In this document: piece after piece, positions 1,327-40,147 of the stretch
How positions within the stretch are numbered: position 1 is the first letter of the stretch
How the letters are laid out: each line of letters opens with the position of its first letter
Position numbers and translations under genes: made by a program
From: Sulfolobaceae archaeon
GTDB taxonomy: Archaea > Thermoproteota > Thermoprotei_A > Sulfolobales > Sulfolobaceae
Reading direction: 5' to 3'
DNA: 64,000 nucleotides
NCBI GenBank assembly: GCA_028277025.1
Contig: JAPYVG010000004.1
Coordinates: 1 to 64,000 of the forward strand
The notes under the pieces: generated by a model
Database searches by the model: none
What the model saw: only the letters and a program-made list of their open reading frames with translations
Told to the model about the DNA's origin: nothing

Positions 1327-1412
1327 GCCGCCGTAGCTCAGTTTGGTAGAGCGCCGGCCTTGTAAGGTAACTGGAAAGCCGGTGGTCCGGGGTTCAAGTC
1401 CCCGCGGCGGCT
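1327..1412 (+). tRNA. tRNA-Thr (anticodon UGU) with a 12-nt intron
   Basis: The cloverleaf can be drawn by hand. The acceptor GCCGCCG (1327-1333) pairs with CGGCGGC (1405-1411), followed by discriminator U at 1412. The D stem is GCTC/GAGC, the anticodon stem CCGGC/GCCGG, and the T stem CGGGG/CCCCG around TTCAAGT. The loop bases C-T-TGT-A precede an insert at 1365-1376, after which A and the 3' stem resume. That places a 12-nt intron directly 3' of position 37, the canonical archaeal site. The anticodon TGT (1361-1363) reads ACA codons. CCA is not encoded. The 3' end is overlapped on the opposite strand by the small RHH gene. Confidence 0.95.
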
Positions 1413-1540
1413 TTCTTTTCCCTTAGATACTTTATTAGAGCTTCCCTAATTACTTCACTTCTAGTTACCCTTGAATTCACAGCATATAAATCAAGCTCTT
1501 GTAATAAGTCCTCCTCCAATTTAAATGTGATCACTCTCAT
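1394..1540 (-). CDS. Small ribbon-helix-helix DNA-binding protein, candidate cell-cycle regulator aCcr1
   Basis: A 48-residue frame starts at ATG 1540 and ends at a TGA inside the T-loop of tRNA-Thr. It reads [17 protein letters not shown] at the front, the beta strand and first helix of an RHH/CopG fold, then [13 protein letters not shown] as the second helix, with a basic tail. Such proteins bind DNA as dimers through the beta strand. Sulfolobales carry a tiny RHH regulator, aCcr1, reported to repress cdvA through an AGTATTA motif. As I recall, its DNA-contact residues are R2, K7 and R27, and all three positions match here. A TATA-like AATATATGAG lies about 30 nt upstream, so the gene is probably leaderless. 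RHH paralogues are common, so the aCcr1 identity is inference. Confidence 0.75.
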
Positions 1541-1542
1541 GG

Positions 1543-1591
1543 TACCTCGGTATTACTCTTTGAACACCTCATATATTTCCTGTTCGAGGTA
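1543..1591 (-). promoter_or_regulatory. Promoter and possible operator of the RHH gene
   Basis: TACCTCG (1543-1549) and CGAGGTA (1585-1591) form a perfect 7-bp inverted repeat that brackets the TATA-like element at about 1569-1578. GGTATTAC at 1549-1556 differs by one base from the AGTATTA motif of aCcr1-type regulators. The arrangement would suit autoregulation by the RHH protein. This is a reading of position only. Confidence 0.4.
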
Positions 1592-1609
1592 TAAGTGGAA
1601 TTAGAGAGA

Positions 1610-2767
1610 CTAAACCGAAAGTATTACCTTACTCTCCGTAAGTATTTCATCTATTATTTTTGATAGAAATTGAGGGTCGTTCTCATCAGATATGAAGCCC
1701 TTAATTATCATAGACTCAGCCTCTTTCCTACTGAAACCTCTTGACTCTAAATAGAATATTAAATCCTCCGGAACTTTCGATACTGAAGCTGAGTGCTTAG
1801 CTAATTTAACTCTACCAGTTTTAACCTCTAACATAGGCGCAACTACTGCCTTAGCTTCTTTACCTATTATAAACGCTCTTCCTAAGATTGAAGTTGATGA
1901 ATCGTACGCATTTTCAAATATTGTAGCATCCCCTCTTATAACGGTCAGTGCATTATCGGCCGATATCGCTTTTAACACACCTTCACTCCTGCTATTACTA
2001 CCTATATGGTTAACGTTTATTCTAATATCAATATTGTCGTCATCAATTCCTATTGCCTTGGCTGTAAATGTAGAACTGCTAATACCTTTCAATTCTATAT
2101 TATAATTTATATGAGAAGCTATGGATTTAGAAGAAAATACTAGGTTATTAACCGTACCCTCTACTTCAGCCTTCATGTGAAGAAATACATAAGGAGATAA
2201 AGAAATTACATATAAATTAAGTATTGAATCCTTGCTCACTTTAAGTGAGATAACTGAAGAAGTCATGGAAGTTAGTTTAGACTCAGAAAAATAAATAAGA
2301 TCTAATTCATCACCCTCTTTTATCTCTACCTCTAAATTTAAGGGTGATATTGTCTTCTCTAGGGAGGACGTATGATATACTAAAACCTTCTTAAACTCAC
2401 GGGAGGTAATCCGTATTTTCCTTGATAATGCTAAGGTTAATGCTACAAGTTTGTGTTCTTCCGGCTTTATTAACTCGTTATAGGGAGAGTCAGAAACAGT
2501 TACATTACTGTCTTTTATCAACCCGTTGTCCACTACGATAGTCTTATAATCTTCTATCTGTCTACTCACTTTAGTTTCATCTGAGTCTTTAACTTCGAGA
2601 CTCAAGTTATCAAATTTATTCCAATCAGTATAATGTTTTAGTGTTGGTGAATCATGAATTACTTGATAAGGTAAAGAAAGATATGTTGATAAAAGCTTTT
2701 CCCTTTCCATCTTATTTTCAAATTTGGAAATATATTGTTGAGCAGAAGAAAAATTTACAACTCCCAT
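1610..2767 (-). CDS. sufD: Fe-S cluster assembly protein SufD
   Basis: SufD-type scaffold subunit of 385 residues. With SufB and SufC it forms the SufBCD complex that builds Fe-S clusters in the cytoplasm. The C-terminal half shows the right-handed beta-helix pattern and the motif KLAKHSASVSKV, holding the His that the family uses at the SufB-SufD interface, followed by the helical end LIFYLESRGFSRKEAESMII. It begins one base after the sufB stop, so the two are co-translated. The N-terminal helical part is poorly conserved, as usual for SufD. It is the last gene of the phoU-like/sufC/sufB/sufD run. Confidence 0.93.
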   Translation of the reverse strand: MGVVNFSSAQQYISKFENKMEREKLLSTYLSLPYQVIHDSPTLKHYTDWNKFDNLSLEVKDSDETKVSRQIEDYKTIVVDNGLIKDSNVTVSDSPYNELIKPEEHKLVALTLALSRKIRITSREFKKVLVYHTSSLEKTISPLNLEVEIKEGDELDLIYFSESKLTSMTSSVISLKVSKDSILNLYVISLSPYVFLHMKAEVEGTVNNLVFSSKSIASHINYNIELKGISSSTFTAKAIGIDDDNIDIRINVNHIGSNSRSEGVLKAISADNALTVIRGDATIFENAYDSSTSILGRAFIIGKEAKAVVAPMLEVKTGRVKLAKHSASVSKVPEDLIFYLESRGFSRKEAESMIIKGFISDENDPQFLSKIIDEILTESKVILSV

Positions 2768-14265: not shown

Positions 14266-14282
14266 ATCATCTGACAGATGAT
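14266..14282. repeat. 17-bp palindrome upstream of cdvA
   Basis: ATCATCTG-A-CAGATGAT is a perfect inverted repeat with a 1-nt centre, about 55 bp upstream of the cdvA TATA box and between divergent genes. It overlaps the candidate box C. It is the size of a dimeric repressor site, or it may be chance overlap with the RNA box. Confidence 0.5.
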
Positions 14283-14332
14283 GAGGGTTAAAAGCGCTTA
14301 TCGGTGCTGAGCCTCTACCTGCTGAAGAGCCT
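14270..14332 (+). ncRNA. Candidate C/D box guide RNA upstream of cdvA
   Basis: The strip is GC-rich for this genome. Box C ATGATGA (14278-14284) is canonical, and box D CTGA is at 14322-14325. Between them, CTTA (14297-14300) and GTGCTGA (14304-14310) sit where D' and C' should be: 12 nt from C to D', 3 nt from D' to C', 11 nt from C' to D. The D' box is degenerate, so the call is tentative. The region just upstream is a palindrome (14266-14282), and the cdvA TATA follows at 14338. It could instead be a regulatory DNA region of cdvA. Confidence 0.4.
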
Positions 14333-14337
14333 AAACC

Positions 14338-14381
14338 CTTTTAAATACTATTAGCACAGCTCATAATTTTGAGGAGTATTA
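14338..14381 (+). promoter_or_regulatory. cdvA promoter: TATA box, ribosome-binding site and AGTATTA motif
   Basis: CTTTTAAATA (14338-14347) is a TATA element. GAGGAG (14371-14376) is a strong ribosome-binding site. AGTATTA (14375-14381) follows immediately and ends two bases before the ATG. AGTATTA is, from memory, the motif bound by the Sulfolobales RHH regulator aCcr1, which represses cdvA. The site sits at or just after the expected transcription start, so a bound dimer would block initiation. Confidence 0.7.
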
Positions 14382-14383
14382 CC

Positions 14384-15100
14384 ATGGTGGTTTCAGTTGA
14401 AGTATTAACGAAATTCATAGGTCAAAAAATAAAGGACATATATGGAAGGGATGCGGGTGTATTATTGCATGTTTATACTGAAATTGACGGTACAATAACT
14501 GGCGTTGAAATAGCTAGAGGAGACGAGATAACAACTTACTCACCTGATAACCTAAAGCTTGACGGAGATACTTTAGTTCTATTACCAGAATGGAAAACTG
14601 AAGCTTTAAGAGTCTTAGGTTACATAGAAAAAATAAGAAGAAGGCAGAAAGCCTTAGAGGAGCTTTACTCTAAGCAAGAAATTCCCAAAAGCATGTATGA
14701 TGATATGAAAAGAAAACTTGACTCAGAGCTATTAAAGATTAGGGAAGAGCATGCAAAACTAAAAGGCAAGCTTAAGGATAGATTAAATAGAATAGAAGAC
14801 CAGCTGGCACTAATTGATAAAGCTACAATAGCATTAAAAATGAGTTATATTTCTGGTGAATTACCAGAAATTGCATATAAGAACTCCATTGAAATTTTAA
14901 GACAGTCAAGAGAAAGTTATACTTTAGAAAGAGACGATATAAAGAAAACACTTGACAAATTAGACGGCCTGGATAAAGAAACTATTGAACTTAAACCTTC
15001 TCCCTCATTATCCACGCAAACAGAACAACCCAAGCCTACAGAGAGTAATAAATCAGAAGTACCATTACCAATACCAGTAAGGGTAATAAATACTTTATGA
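14384..15100 (+). CDS. cdvA: Cell division protein CdvA
   Basis: About 238 residues. CdvA forms the membrane-associated scaffold at mid-cell and recruits the ESCRT-III protein CdvB. A PRC-barrel-like N-terminus ([20 protein letters not shown], then [18 protein letters not shown]) leads into a long coiled coil ([19 protein letters not shown] to about residue 195). A Pro-rich linker leads to the short C-terminal CdvB-binding peptide [15 protein letters not shown]. The ATG at 14384 has GAGGAG 8 nt upstream; a TTG at 14369 is less likely. It is first of cdvA-cdvB-cdvC. Confidence 0.96.
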
Positions 15101-15118: not shown

Positions 15119-15910
15119 ATGTTTAACAAGATATCTTCGCTTTTTAATAACGATAAAAAACGAAAGGCACAATTAGGGAAACTGCTAACAGAGATCTCAT
15201 TAAAATTAAAAGACCAACAGAACAGGTTAGAAGAAGCAATACATAGACTTAAGGATAGGGATAAAGAATTATTCGAAAAAGTCATCAGAGCACAAATAGA
15301 GGGCGATATGGCGAGAGCTACAATTTATGCTCAAGAAATCTCTGACATAAGAAAGATGATAAAAATTATATACACAGCCTATTTAGCCATAGAAAAAGTA
15401 AGGTTAAAACTAGATACCGTCCAAGAATTACAAGGAGTCTCTTTGGTACTGTTCCCAGTAATGAAAATATTAAATGAACTTAAAGATCAAATAAAAGGAA
15501 TAGCACCAGAAGTCGCAATAGCGCTAGACTCAATCACGAGTAGTGTAAATAGTATAGCCATAGAAACCGGTGCAATAAGTGAAAAGACTGTAGTACCAGC
15601 AGTTGTAGATGAGCAGGCTAAACAAATATTAGACGAAGCACAGAAGATGGCAGAAATTAAAGTAAGAGAACTATTACCAGAATTACCACATCCACCAAAT
15701 GAAATACCTAAAATTAAATCAACGCAAAGGGTTGAAAATAACGTAAAGAGAAGAACTCTGACAGAAGAGGATTTGCTAACTTATATTAAGAGCAAGGGAG
15801 GCATACTAGATATAGAACACGTATGCAAAACGTATGGAGTAGACAAAGAAGATATATTCGATTTACTTAGAAAATTGCAACAGAAAGGTGCTATTGTCAT
15901 AGAAGGGTGA
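15119..15910 (+). CDS. cdvB: ESCRT-III homologue CdvB
   Basis: 263 residues. It polymerises at the division site as part of the archaeal ESCRT machinery. Residues about 15-160 form the helical ESCRT-III core ([39 protein letters not shown]). A Pro-rich MIM2-type motif, [11 protein letters not shown] near residue 190, is the binding site for the MIT domain of CdvC. A C-terminal winged helix ([20 protein letters not shown] to the end) binds the CdvA tail. It lies 18 nt after cdvA and 4 nt before cdvC. Confidence 0.96.
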
Positions 15911-15914
15911 AGAT

Positions 15915-17039
15915 ATGTCTGCTCAAACTATGCTTGAAGAAATGGCAAGGAAGTATGCTGTAAACGCTGTTAAAGCTGACAAGGAAGGTAACGTGGAAGA
16001 GGCAATTAATAACTATAAAAAGGCAATAGAAGTACTATCACAATTATTAGCTTTATATCCAGATTCACCGTCAGCAAGAATATATGAACAAATGATAAAT
16101 GAATATAAAAAGAGAATAGAAGTTCTAAAAGAAGTGGTACCCGCAACAGCTGAAAATCCTACTAACAACAAAACAACAGTTTCAATTGACGATTTAATAG
16201 TAAAAGAGAAACCAAAAGTTTCATTTAACGATATAGTAGGATTAGATGATGTAAAAGAAGCATTAAAAGAAGCAATAGTATACCCTACCAAGAGACCAGA
16301 CTTATTTCCATTAGGGTGGCCTAGAGGAATTCTGCTATACGGACCCCCTGGCTGTGGTAAAACCATGATCGCCGCGGCAGTTGCAAATGAAATAGACTCA
16401 TATTTTATTCAGGTAGATGCAGCATCCATAATGTCAAAATGGTTAGGTGAGGCAGAAAAAAATGTAGCAAAAATTTTTAGCTCTGCTAGAGAAATTTCTA
16501 AAAAAGAAAACAAACCAATAATAATATTTATTGATGAAATAGATGCATTACTAGGCGTTTACAACTCTGAAAATGGGGGAGAAGTTAGAGTTAGAAACCA
16601 GTTCTTGAAAGAGATGGATGGGTTACAAGATAAAGCTGAAAAATTCCTAGTTTATGTTATAGGGGCAACAAACAAGCCATGGAGACTTGATGAACCGTTC
16701 CTGAGAAGGTTCCAGAAAAGGATATATGTAAGATTACCCGATTTCCAACAGAGACTTGCATTATTAAAGTACTATACTTCTAAAATAACCCTTGACTCAG
16801 ACGTTAATTTAGAGGAATTAGCCAAAAAGACCGAAGGTTACACAGCTAGCGATATAAAGGATATTGTGCAAGCAGCCCATATAAGGGTTGTGAAAGAAAT
16901 GTTTGAGAAGAACTTACCACAACCGAGACCAGTAAACATGAACGATTTTGAAGAAGTGCTAAAGGTTAGAAAACCAAGCGTGAACCAAGAGATGGTAAAA
17001 GCATATGAGGTCTGGCATGAGAAGTTTAAAGCTTTATAA
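15915..17039 (+). CDS. cdvC: Vps4-like AAA ATPase CdvC
   Basis: 374 residues. It remodels CdvB-family polymers during constriction. An N-terminal MIT three-helix domain (residues 1-75, with [20 protein letters not shown]) precedes one AAA+ module. Walker A GPPGCGKT is at 143-150, Walker [12 protein letters not shown] at about 202-212, and the Arg fingers lie in [15 protein letters not shown] Vps4-type C-terminal helix ends the protein. The start lies four bases after the cdvB stop. Two bases after its stop lies a candidate guide RNA on the other strand. Confidence 0.97.
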
Positions 17040-39862: not shown

Positions 39863-40147
39863 ATGAGTAATTTTACGGTATTAAGAGAGGGGAATAAGAT
39901 CGTAATCACGTGTAATAGTGTTAAAAAAGTATTACTTAGGTTAGTTAGGATAGAGTATGAAGTAACTACACTTACAGTTGAGCAAGAAAGAATTCCAAAA
40001 ACGATATCAGAAGAAATTACAGTAGAAAAAGAAATGAAAAATGGAGATAAAATAGAAATAAAAGCTCAATTAGACACTGTAAAGAAAGTGAGCTTAATTT
40101 ACAGAGATGCTTTCGGGATGACCCTCAGGGATGATATTGAGCTCTAA
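39863..40147 (+). CDS. Unknown 94-residue protein divergent from cdvB2
   Basis: Beta-rich, charged and without Cys ([19 protein letters not shown] has one Cys only); likely a small beta sandwich. No family recognised. It shares a promoter region with cdvB2 and overlaps the convergent UbiD-like gene end by 23 nt. Confidence 0.65.

Follow-up and report, generated by a model that had tools for sequence, protein, structure and literature searches.

The gene considered here is a relative of aCcr1, a small regulator of the ribbon-helix-helix (RHH) type, which we take to be the product of SiRe_0197 / SiL_0190 and to be 58 aa long. The DNA contacts of aCcr1 are presumably R2, K7 and R27, and its recognition sequence, at cdvA, is presumably AGTATTA. 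SIRV2 gp21 is reportedly an experimentally tested member of the aCcr1 group. One founding study of aCcr1 reportedly treats, by its title, an RHH clade of the Sulfolobales and their viruses, and for this reason the gene described below cannot be called undescribed.

In archaea that divide with ESCRT proteins, DNA damage stops division; Orc1-2 activates genes via ANTTTC, and the division genes fall. According to passages of a study in which S. islandicus was treated with NQO, orc1-2 rose 3.3-fold and Dpo2N 21-fold, and expression fell to 0.28 for cdvA, to 0.31 for ESCRT-III and to 0.34 for SegA (PMC10470591); in the same passages the route by which cdvA and the division genes go down after damage is termed not fully clarified. 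Passages of a second paper report that damage-induced down-regulation of division genes is lost or reduced in orc1-2 mutants, and name ANTTTC the DNA Damage Response Element (DDRE), bound by Orc1-2 (PMC9738581). In excerpts of a third, ANTTTC is the UV hexamer of cdc6-2, tfb3 and two other genes (PMC6934391). The gene of this report could not be recognised in Table 1 of PMC10470591, and a literature search returned no paper on SiRe_1157-1162. The CopG genes of PMC8208165 are other loci, and PMC11868833 carries aCcr1 in its references only and contains no damage terms. Among the papers listed, no title, abstract opening or passage described this paralogue of aCcr1 or its induction.

We analysed a stretch of 64,000 nucleotides from a Sulfolobaceae archaeon (hereafter the window), together with 31 Sulfolobaceae genomes as relatives (the family of G003, Sulfolobales archaeon HS-7). 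The features that matter for the argument are these:

1327..1412, plus strand: a tRNA-Thr(UGU) gene, interrupted by a 12-nt intron, whose 3' end runs antisense into the RHH gene.
1394..1540, minus strand: the RHH gene, 48 aa, an aCcr1 paralogue of the second, cdvA-linked class (assigned from the open reading frame, PF01402, orthologues and class-diagnostic residues).
1549..1557, minus strand: a RGTAWTACY palindrome, which reads AGTAATACC on this strand, at -17 to -9 relative to the first codon of the RHH gene.
1571..1578, minus strand: a TATA-like A/T box, AAATATAT, read from the sequence as the probable RHH promoter.
1603..1622, minus strand: a damage-response-type element, ACTTTC (an ANTTTC hexamer, 1617-1622) and then GGTTTAGTCTCTCT.
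1610..2767, minus strand: the upstream neighbour of the RHH gene, read as sufD; sufC-sufB-sufD, so read, are on the same strand and conserved in relatives.
1620..1628, no strand assigned: a further copy of the RGTAWTACY palindrome, which shares bases with the ANTTTC hexamer and with the end of sufD.
14375..14383, plus strand: the palindrome AGTATTACC, immediately upstream of the ATG of cdvA, at the position of the aCcr1 box.
14384..15100, plus strand: a gene read as cdvA, with ATG at 14384; in the open reading frame list it begins at TTG 14369, 5 codons too far upstream.

The small RHH frame reported at 1394-1540 by the first-pass annotation is genuine. The plus strand is interrupted there by stops, with the open frame on the minus strand, and the 48-aa protein scores 31.7 bits with Pfam RHH_1 (PF01402), above the curated cut-off of 20.5 (E 1.4e-7). 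It is conserved in the Sulfolobaceae, the named relatives including Sulfurisphaera and Sulfolobus acidocaldarius. In the 39 codons that follow the start codon, comparison with the nearest relatives, G020 and G021 (92 percent identity for the RHH protein and 83 percent for CdvA), gives 21 synonymous and 4 non-synonymous codons for G020 and 18 and 4 for G021, and this synonymous excess supports the frame as coding. The AlphaFold model (mean pLDDT 86) has helices at 10-22 and 27-45, the strand being unassigned in the monomer. Its top fold matches in the PDB are mostly RHH proteins, including StnY, CopG and SIRV1 SvtR, all with weak E-values (best 0.039), and a sequence search of the PDB likewise gave weak matches.

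A further claim, that this protein is aCcr1 itself, did not survive comparison with the relatives. Each of the 31 genomes contains more than one relative of the RHH protein, and two classes can be told apart. Class A has 58 aa in 31/31 genomes, counted from a conserved start that the extraction pattern imposes, and ends in a VPxAxVE-type tail, which is also the tail of SIRV2 gp21; ATV gp29 has the class-A core. We take class A to be the class of aCcr1. Class W, the class of the window gene, has 42-73 residues and tails that differ from those of class A; in the window protein the tail is KAAAGT, with no VPxAxVE. Both classes are found in all 31 genomes. Class W is clear in 29, which are the 29 relatives counted below; in the remaining two the gene is cut by a contig end (G005) or represented by a diverged candidate (G003). 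Where several class-W-like matches were present (G002, G013 and G019), the one near cdvA was taken.

Alignment columns 14, 18, 22, 24 and 26, which fall in the helix region, split the two classes without overlap, and the window protein has the W residue at all five. Its core identity is 0.62-0.90 to class W and 0.50-0.60 to class A, in a table where three viral rows lack the core pattern. The supposed contacts R2, K7 and R27 are indeed all present, as had been stated, but they are no marker of aCcr1: R2 occurs in 30/31 W rows (29 relatives, the L087 copy described below and the window) and in 31/31 A rows, and K7 and R27 in every row of both classes, so that these residues cannot identify it. 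The DNA-reading strand, likewise, is RVITFK in the W protein and RVVTFK in aCcr1. The RHH match, the three contact residues and the AGTATTA before cdvA are thus what speak for the window gene being the true aCcr1 of its organism. We consider this scarcely credible, as an RHH gene closer to aCcr1, separate from class W, is found in 31/31 Sulfolobaceae genomes, the two closest included (L192 and L193), and as the core identities favor class W. A tblastn search of the 64 kb window found no second gene of this kind, and the aCcr1 gene of the organism itself is presumed from its relatives. The window gene is a paralogue, separate from aCcr1 and present throughout the family, and the case carries a caution that R2, K7 and R27 plus a nearby box are insufficient to identify aCcr1.

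Phylogenetic reconstruction (77 rows, 58 columns) placed class A together with SIRV2 gp21, ATV gp29, SSRV1 and AFV1-59b in a node with 99/98 support, with the window protein outside. The protein is short and the bootstrap had not settled, so that the tree is poorly resolved outside this node; class W is not recovered as a clade in it, and one W row (L081) is placed beside class A with weak support. Two candidate assignments were discarded. P0022, a 62-aa S. islandicus match, was rejected as aCcr1, being near plasmid RHH proteins and outside the 58-aa class, and L085 of G003 was rejected as a class-W orthologue because of its plasmid-kind tail. A candidate at G003:1991093 with 40 percent identity, which fits in position and carries the element upstream, was taken instead.

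The classes also differ in genomic position. Where the two genes share a contig, class W is 9,274-15,026 bp from cdvA (29/29 genomes), 24 of these distances being within 12.25-12.99 kb (12.8 kb in the window), with the qualification that in G002, G013, G019 and G003 the match was chosen near cdvA, so that its closeness there is partly by choice. Class A is at least 255,583 bp from cdvA in 24/24 measurable genomes. What stands of the idea that regulator and target share one stretch is therefore that an aCcr1 homologue is 12.8 kb from a boxed cdvA; that homologue is not aCcr1. The block in between, which we read as suf, PhoU-like, hsp20-like, glycine-cleavage, enolase and cdvABC genes, is itself conserved, which makes the linkage alone weak evidence of function, and closeness to cdvA may reflect only a conserved gene block.

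On its other side the RHH gene runs into a tRNA gene. The tail AAAGT-stop is read from the acceptor and T arm of the tRNA, antisense, with the stop TGA from the T loop. The class-W gene shares at least 1 base with an opposite-strand tRNA gene in 28/29 loci and more than 1 base in 24/29. This tRNA is mostly called tRNA-Thr (Thr(CGU) in G007), and we take the few non-Thr calls at the same place for intron miscalls; in the window, where ARAGORN makes no Thr call, the identity comes from the loop sequence and the relatives. A role as regulator of the suf genes was set aside, as in G012 and G002 an inversion separates the RHH-tRNA unit from sufD. In G002 (Metallosphaera yellowstonensis, contig C19) a 646-bp perfect direct repeat (L206, 1995-2640 / 15898-16543) starts inside a tRNA-Gln and holds the RHH gene and tRNA-Thr, so that the RHH gene is there twice; the second copy, L087, encodes an identical protein, and L085 and L087 are outside the class-W promoter counts. 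The approximately 13 kb between the repeats contain a split integrase and spindle-virus-like genes, as judged by eye from the open reading frames. This duplication is either a provirus capture of the RHH gene or an assembly artefact.

Such surroundings raise the question of whether the gene is a leftover regulator of a tRNA-integrated element, kept by drift. The overlap with a tRNA gene and the provirus-like element in G002 would fit, as would class-W-like RHH genes on plasmids (73 percent identity for pSOG2). Drift would not be expected to keep the gene in 31/31 genomes (counting the truncated gene of G005 and the diverged candidate of G003), nor to leave its promoter conserved and its codon changes largely synonymous, and we judge this explanation very unlikely. 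In separate observations, class-W-like RHH genes were seen in plasmid gene cassettes of pSOG2, pMGB1, pYN01, pAH1 and L085 (G003), several ending in VQEL or VREI; an annotated integrase is near in pSOG2 and pMGB1.

The promoter of the RHH gene contains an ANTTTC hexamer followed by a pyrimidine stretch, described by the motif TTTCGGTYNACTCTCTCT, which was drawn up from the W promoters themselves. The best match is at -72 to -87 from the W start in 31/31 promoters (window, 29 relatives and G003), and 25/31 have at most 3 mismatches, against 0/1550 shuffles. ANTTTC itself, in the orientation of the gene, is present at the element in the window and in 28/29 W relatives, the exceptions in the set being L117 and the G003 candidate. 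In the window, the variant TTTCGGTYNASTCTCTCT matches exactly at a single site, upstream of the RHH gene; a further site has 3 mismatches. The start regions of the 57 other window ORFs of at least 100 aa contain no element with fewer than 5 mismatches; the palindrome discussed below is found among them only at cdvA. The element stays with the RHH gene where the sufD arrangement is broken (G002, G003 and G012). We rejected the idea that the pyrimidine element is a terminator of the suf genes, since it accompanies the RHH gene even where sufD is not its neighbour or the unit has been turned round, and an Rfam search gave no family at the element.

Across 8 genomes, 34 places match the element with at most 2 mismatches, compared with 19 for a reversed control, and 7 of the 34 are W promoters. 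Sixteen of the other 27 were inspected (every one of the 12 with 0 or 1 mismatch, and 4 of the 15 with 2), and 12 of these 16 precede four recurrent gene families: orc1-2, identified as Cdc6/Orc1 from Pfam and from sequence matches in the PDB; a dpo2-type operon, assigned in L247 from DNA_pol_B and in L248 from the similarity of its first gene; a protein of 55-61 aa; and a protein of 113-124 aa. The other 4 lie outside these families and include the recurrent L238/L242, inside a coding frame. Two of the families are worth recording in their own right. The extended ANTTTC-pyrimidine element is carried by the 55-61 aa family, with CxxC (L233, L237, L240, L243, L245), and by the 113-124 aa family (L234, L241, L244); L233 and L241 gave no Pfam match, and from their promoters both families are candidate damage-response genes.

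The second promoter feature is the palindrome RGTAWTACY, a motif drawn up from the cdvA and W promoters. The first-pass annotation had noted AGTATTA right before cdvA, and this holds: the 7-mer at 14375-14381 ends 2 nt before the ATG at 14384, and the position is conserved, with AGTATTA before cdvA in 15/31 relatives and RGTAWTACY in 28/31. The bare 7-mer was discarded as evidence, since its 17 matches in the window are below the 24.9 expected. RGTAWTACY has 4 matches in the window against 3.29 expected, two of them directly before the RHH gene and cdvA. A palindrome at the place of the one at 1620-1628 occurs in 1/30 other W promoters (L094), and the fourth, at 39928-39936, is outside the start regions (120 nt upstream, 60 nt in) of the 57 ORFs of at least 100 aa. 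Within 45 nt before the W start the palindrome is exact in 15/29 relatives (mean 0.05 and maximum 1 in 300 shuffles), so that roughly half of the genomes, window included, have it close to where transcription is expected to begin. It is missing before W in 14/29, among them all 7 Saccharolobus-like genomes (G013-G019); there cdvA has the palindrome and W does not, and autoregulation is therefore not universal. No RGTAWTACY was found before class A (0/31) or before ESCRT-III paralogues (0/20, two of these having no usable upstream sequence), and putative segA has the full palindrome in 0/6, with AGTATTA-like halves only. Since the box is absent from the other ESCRT-III genes and putative segA, the W protein cannot explain all of the damage repression by way of this box. 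Directly upstream of cdvA, at 14274-14327 of the plus strand, we also observed a sub-threshold Rfam match to the C/D-box sRNA sR1 (35.1 bits against a gathering value of 45, E 9.6e-6); a CTGA-containing stretch there is, by eye, kept in most relatives.

With both motifs fixed beforehand, we examined the promoters of orc1-2, for which a single Orc1-2 match was available in 30/31 genomes; two of these 30 promoters had already been seen. ANTTTC is present at the best element match in 30/30, with 1 to 5 mismatches to the whole element; 22/30 have at most 4 mismatches, at -56 to -58 or close by, and three are at -71 to -84. The distance to the start is thus about -57 for orc1-2 and about -80 for W. 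RGTAWTACY is found in 17/30 orc1-2 promoters, at -25 to -29, compared with a shuffle mean of 0.19 and maximum of 2. By comparison, any ANTTTC occurs in 1/31 cdvA and 6/31 class-A promoters, without the pyrimidine part, and the best element match in class-A promoters has 5 mismatches. Genome-wide in 11 genomes, the two motifs occur together in 23 + 20 places (controls, 12 + 13), of which 13/43 are by coordinates orc1-2 (6) or W (7). Among the other 30, 20 are wholly inside frames of at least 100 codons, including the pair L337/L349, which recurs in two genomes; one (L323, in G028) is near another Orc1/Cdc6-like sequence. Over these 11 genomes, no promoters other than those of W and orc1-2 combine the two elements recurrently.

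This restriction to two promoters would also be expected of a damage-inducible protein that targets only itself and orc1-2, acting as a brake that ends the response and leaving cdvA to aCcr1. In passages of PMC10470591 it is supposed that a network may reduce orc1-2 RNA and so end the response. We regard a pure brake as doubtful, because the palindrome is most conserved at cdvA (28/31, against 15/29 for W and 17/30 for orc1-2) and because the two paralogues read DNA with almost the same strand. A different possibility starts from the box itself. If AGTATTA is the recognition sequence of aCcr1 at cdvA, aCcr1 may bind these palindromes, and those at W and orc1-2 would be aCcr1 sites tying the damage regulon to the cell cycle, with the W protein binding elsewhere. 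Passages of PMC12796447 report repression of cdvA by aCcr1 and its binding to the cran1 promoter, in which an aCcr1 recognition sequence is present. The five helix-region positions that differ between the classes also leave room for a separate specificity. The 58-aa gene itself lacks the palindrome (0/31), however, and with the presumed contacts R2, K7 and R27 and the strand RV[VI]TFK shared, a different specificity of W would be unexpected; this arrangement seems to us unlikely.

We prefer the reading that the window gene is a DNA-damage-inducible paralogue of aCcr1 and plausibly the missing repressor of cdvA in the damage response, to which we assign a probability of about 50 percent. The comparisons establish the paralogy, the promoter anatomy and the conservation of both; that the gene is induced, and that its product binds and represses, is inferred. 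On DNA damage, Orc1-2 would act at the ANTTTC element and turn the RHH gene on. The RHH dimer, with a strand nearly that of aCcr1, would bind RGTAWTACY and on the palindrome would block the initiation of transcription. Expression of cdvA (and cdvBC) would be lowered and division halted, and by limiting its own expression and that of orc1-2 the dimer would provide feedback. The most complete version, in which the protein is the missing transcriptional link of the damage checkpoint, induced by Orc1-2, occupying the cdvA box and feeding back on orc1-2, is tentative, and we would expect it to fail rather than hold. If true, a damage-induced RHH repressor would fill the regulatory gap for the cdvABC locus, while via this box the gap for the other ESCRT-III genes would stay unfilled. 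Conserved, easy to overlook at its 42-73 codons, and combining a promoter like that of orc1-2 with a DNA-reading strand like that of aCcr1, the gene is in any case a concrete candidate for the route by which cdvA falls. The idea is testable in Sulfolobus acidocaldarius and Saccharolobus islandicus, for both of which genetic tools exist; the orthologue in G024, probably S. acidocaldarius, is at 1188258-1188389, and that of S. islandicus is downstream of sufD.

The class-W protein may finally be set beside known systems. With aCcr1 it has in common the RHH match, the strand RV[VI]TFK, R2, K7 and R27, a Sulfolobaceae-wide distribution and the type of box at cdvA. It differs in lacking the VPxAxVE tail, in five diagnostic residues and in its locus, and its promoter has the ANTTTC-pyrimidine element and often the palindrome, both absent from 58-aa-class promoters. 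SIRV2 gp21 and ATV gp29 are likewise small RHH proteins, from viruses of the Sulfolobales, but they have the hallmarks of the 58-aa class and group with it. The RHH proteins of plasmids pSOG2, pRT2, pMGB1, pYN01 and pAH1 are nearer in sequence (best core identity 0.68-0.80 to class W and 0.55-0.60 to the 58-aa class), and differ in being plasmid-borne and in their tails. CdrS of haloarchaea is another small archaeal RHH protein and, according to PMC7439475 and PMC12284271, regulates cell division. It controls ftsZ2, in euryarchaea. The bacterial SOS response, with its LexA regulon and the inhibition of division by SulA, is an analogy only. In the logic proposed here, as in SOS, a damage-induced gene would stop division; the class-W protein, however, would do so as a putative transcriptional repressor under Orc1-2, and not as an inhibitor of a division protein.
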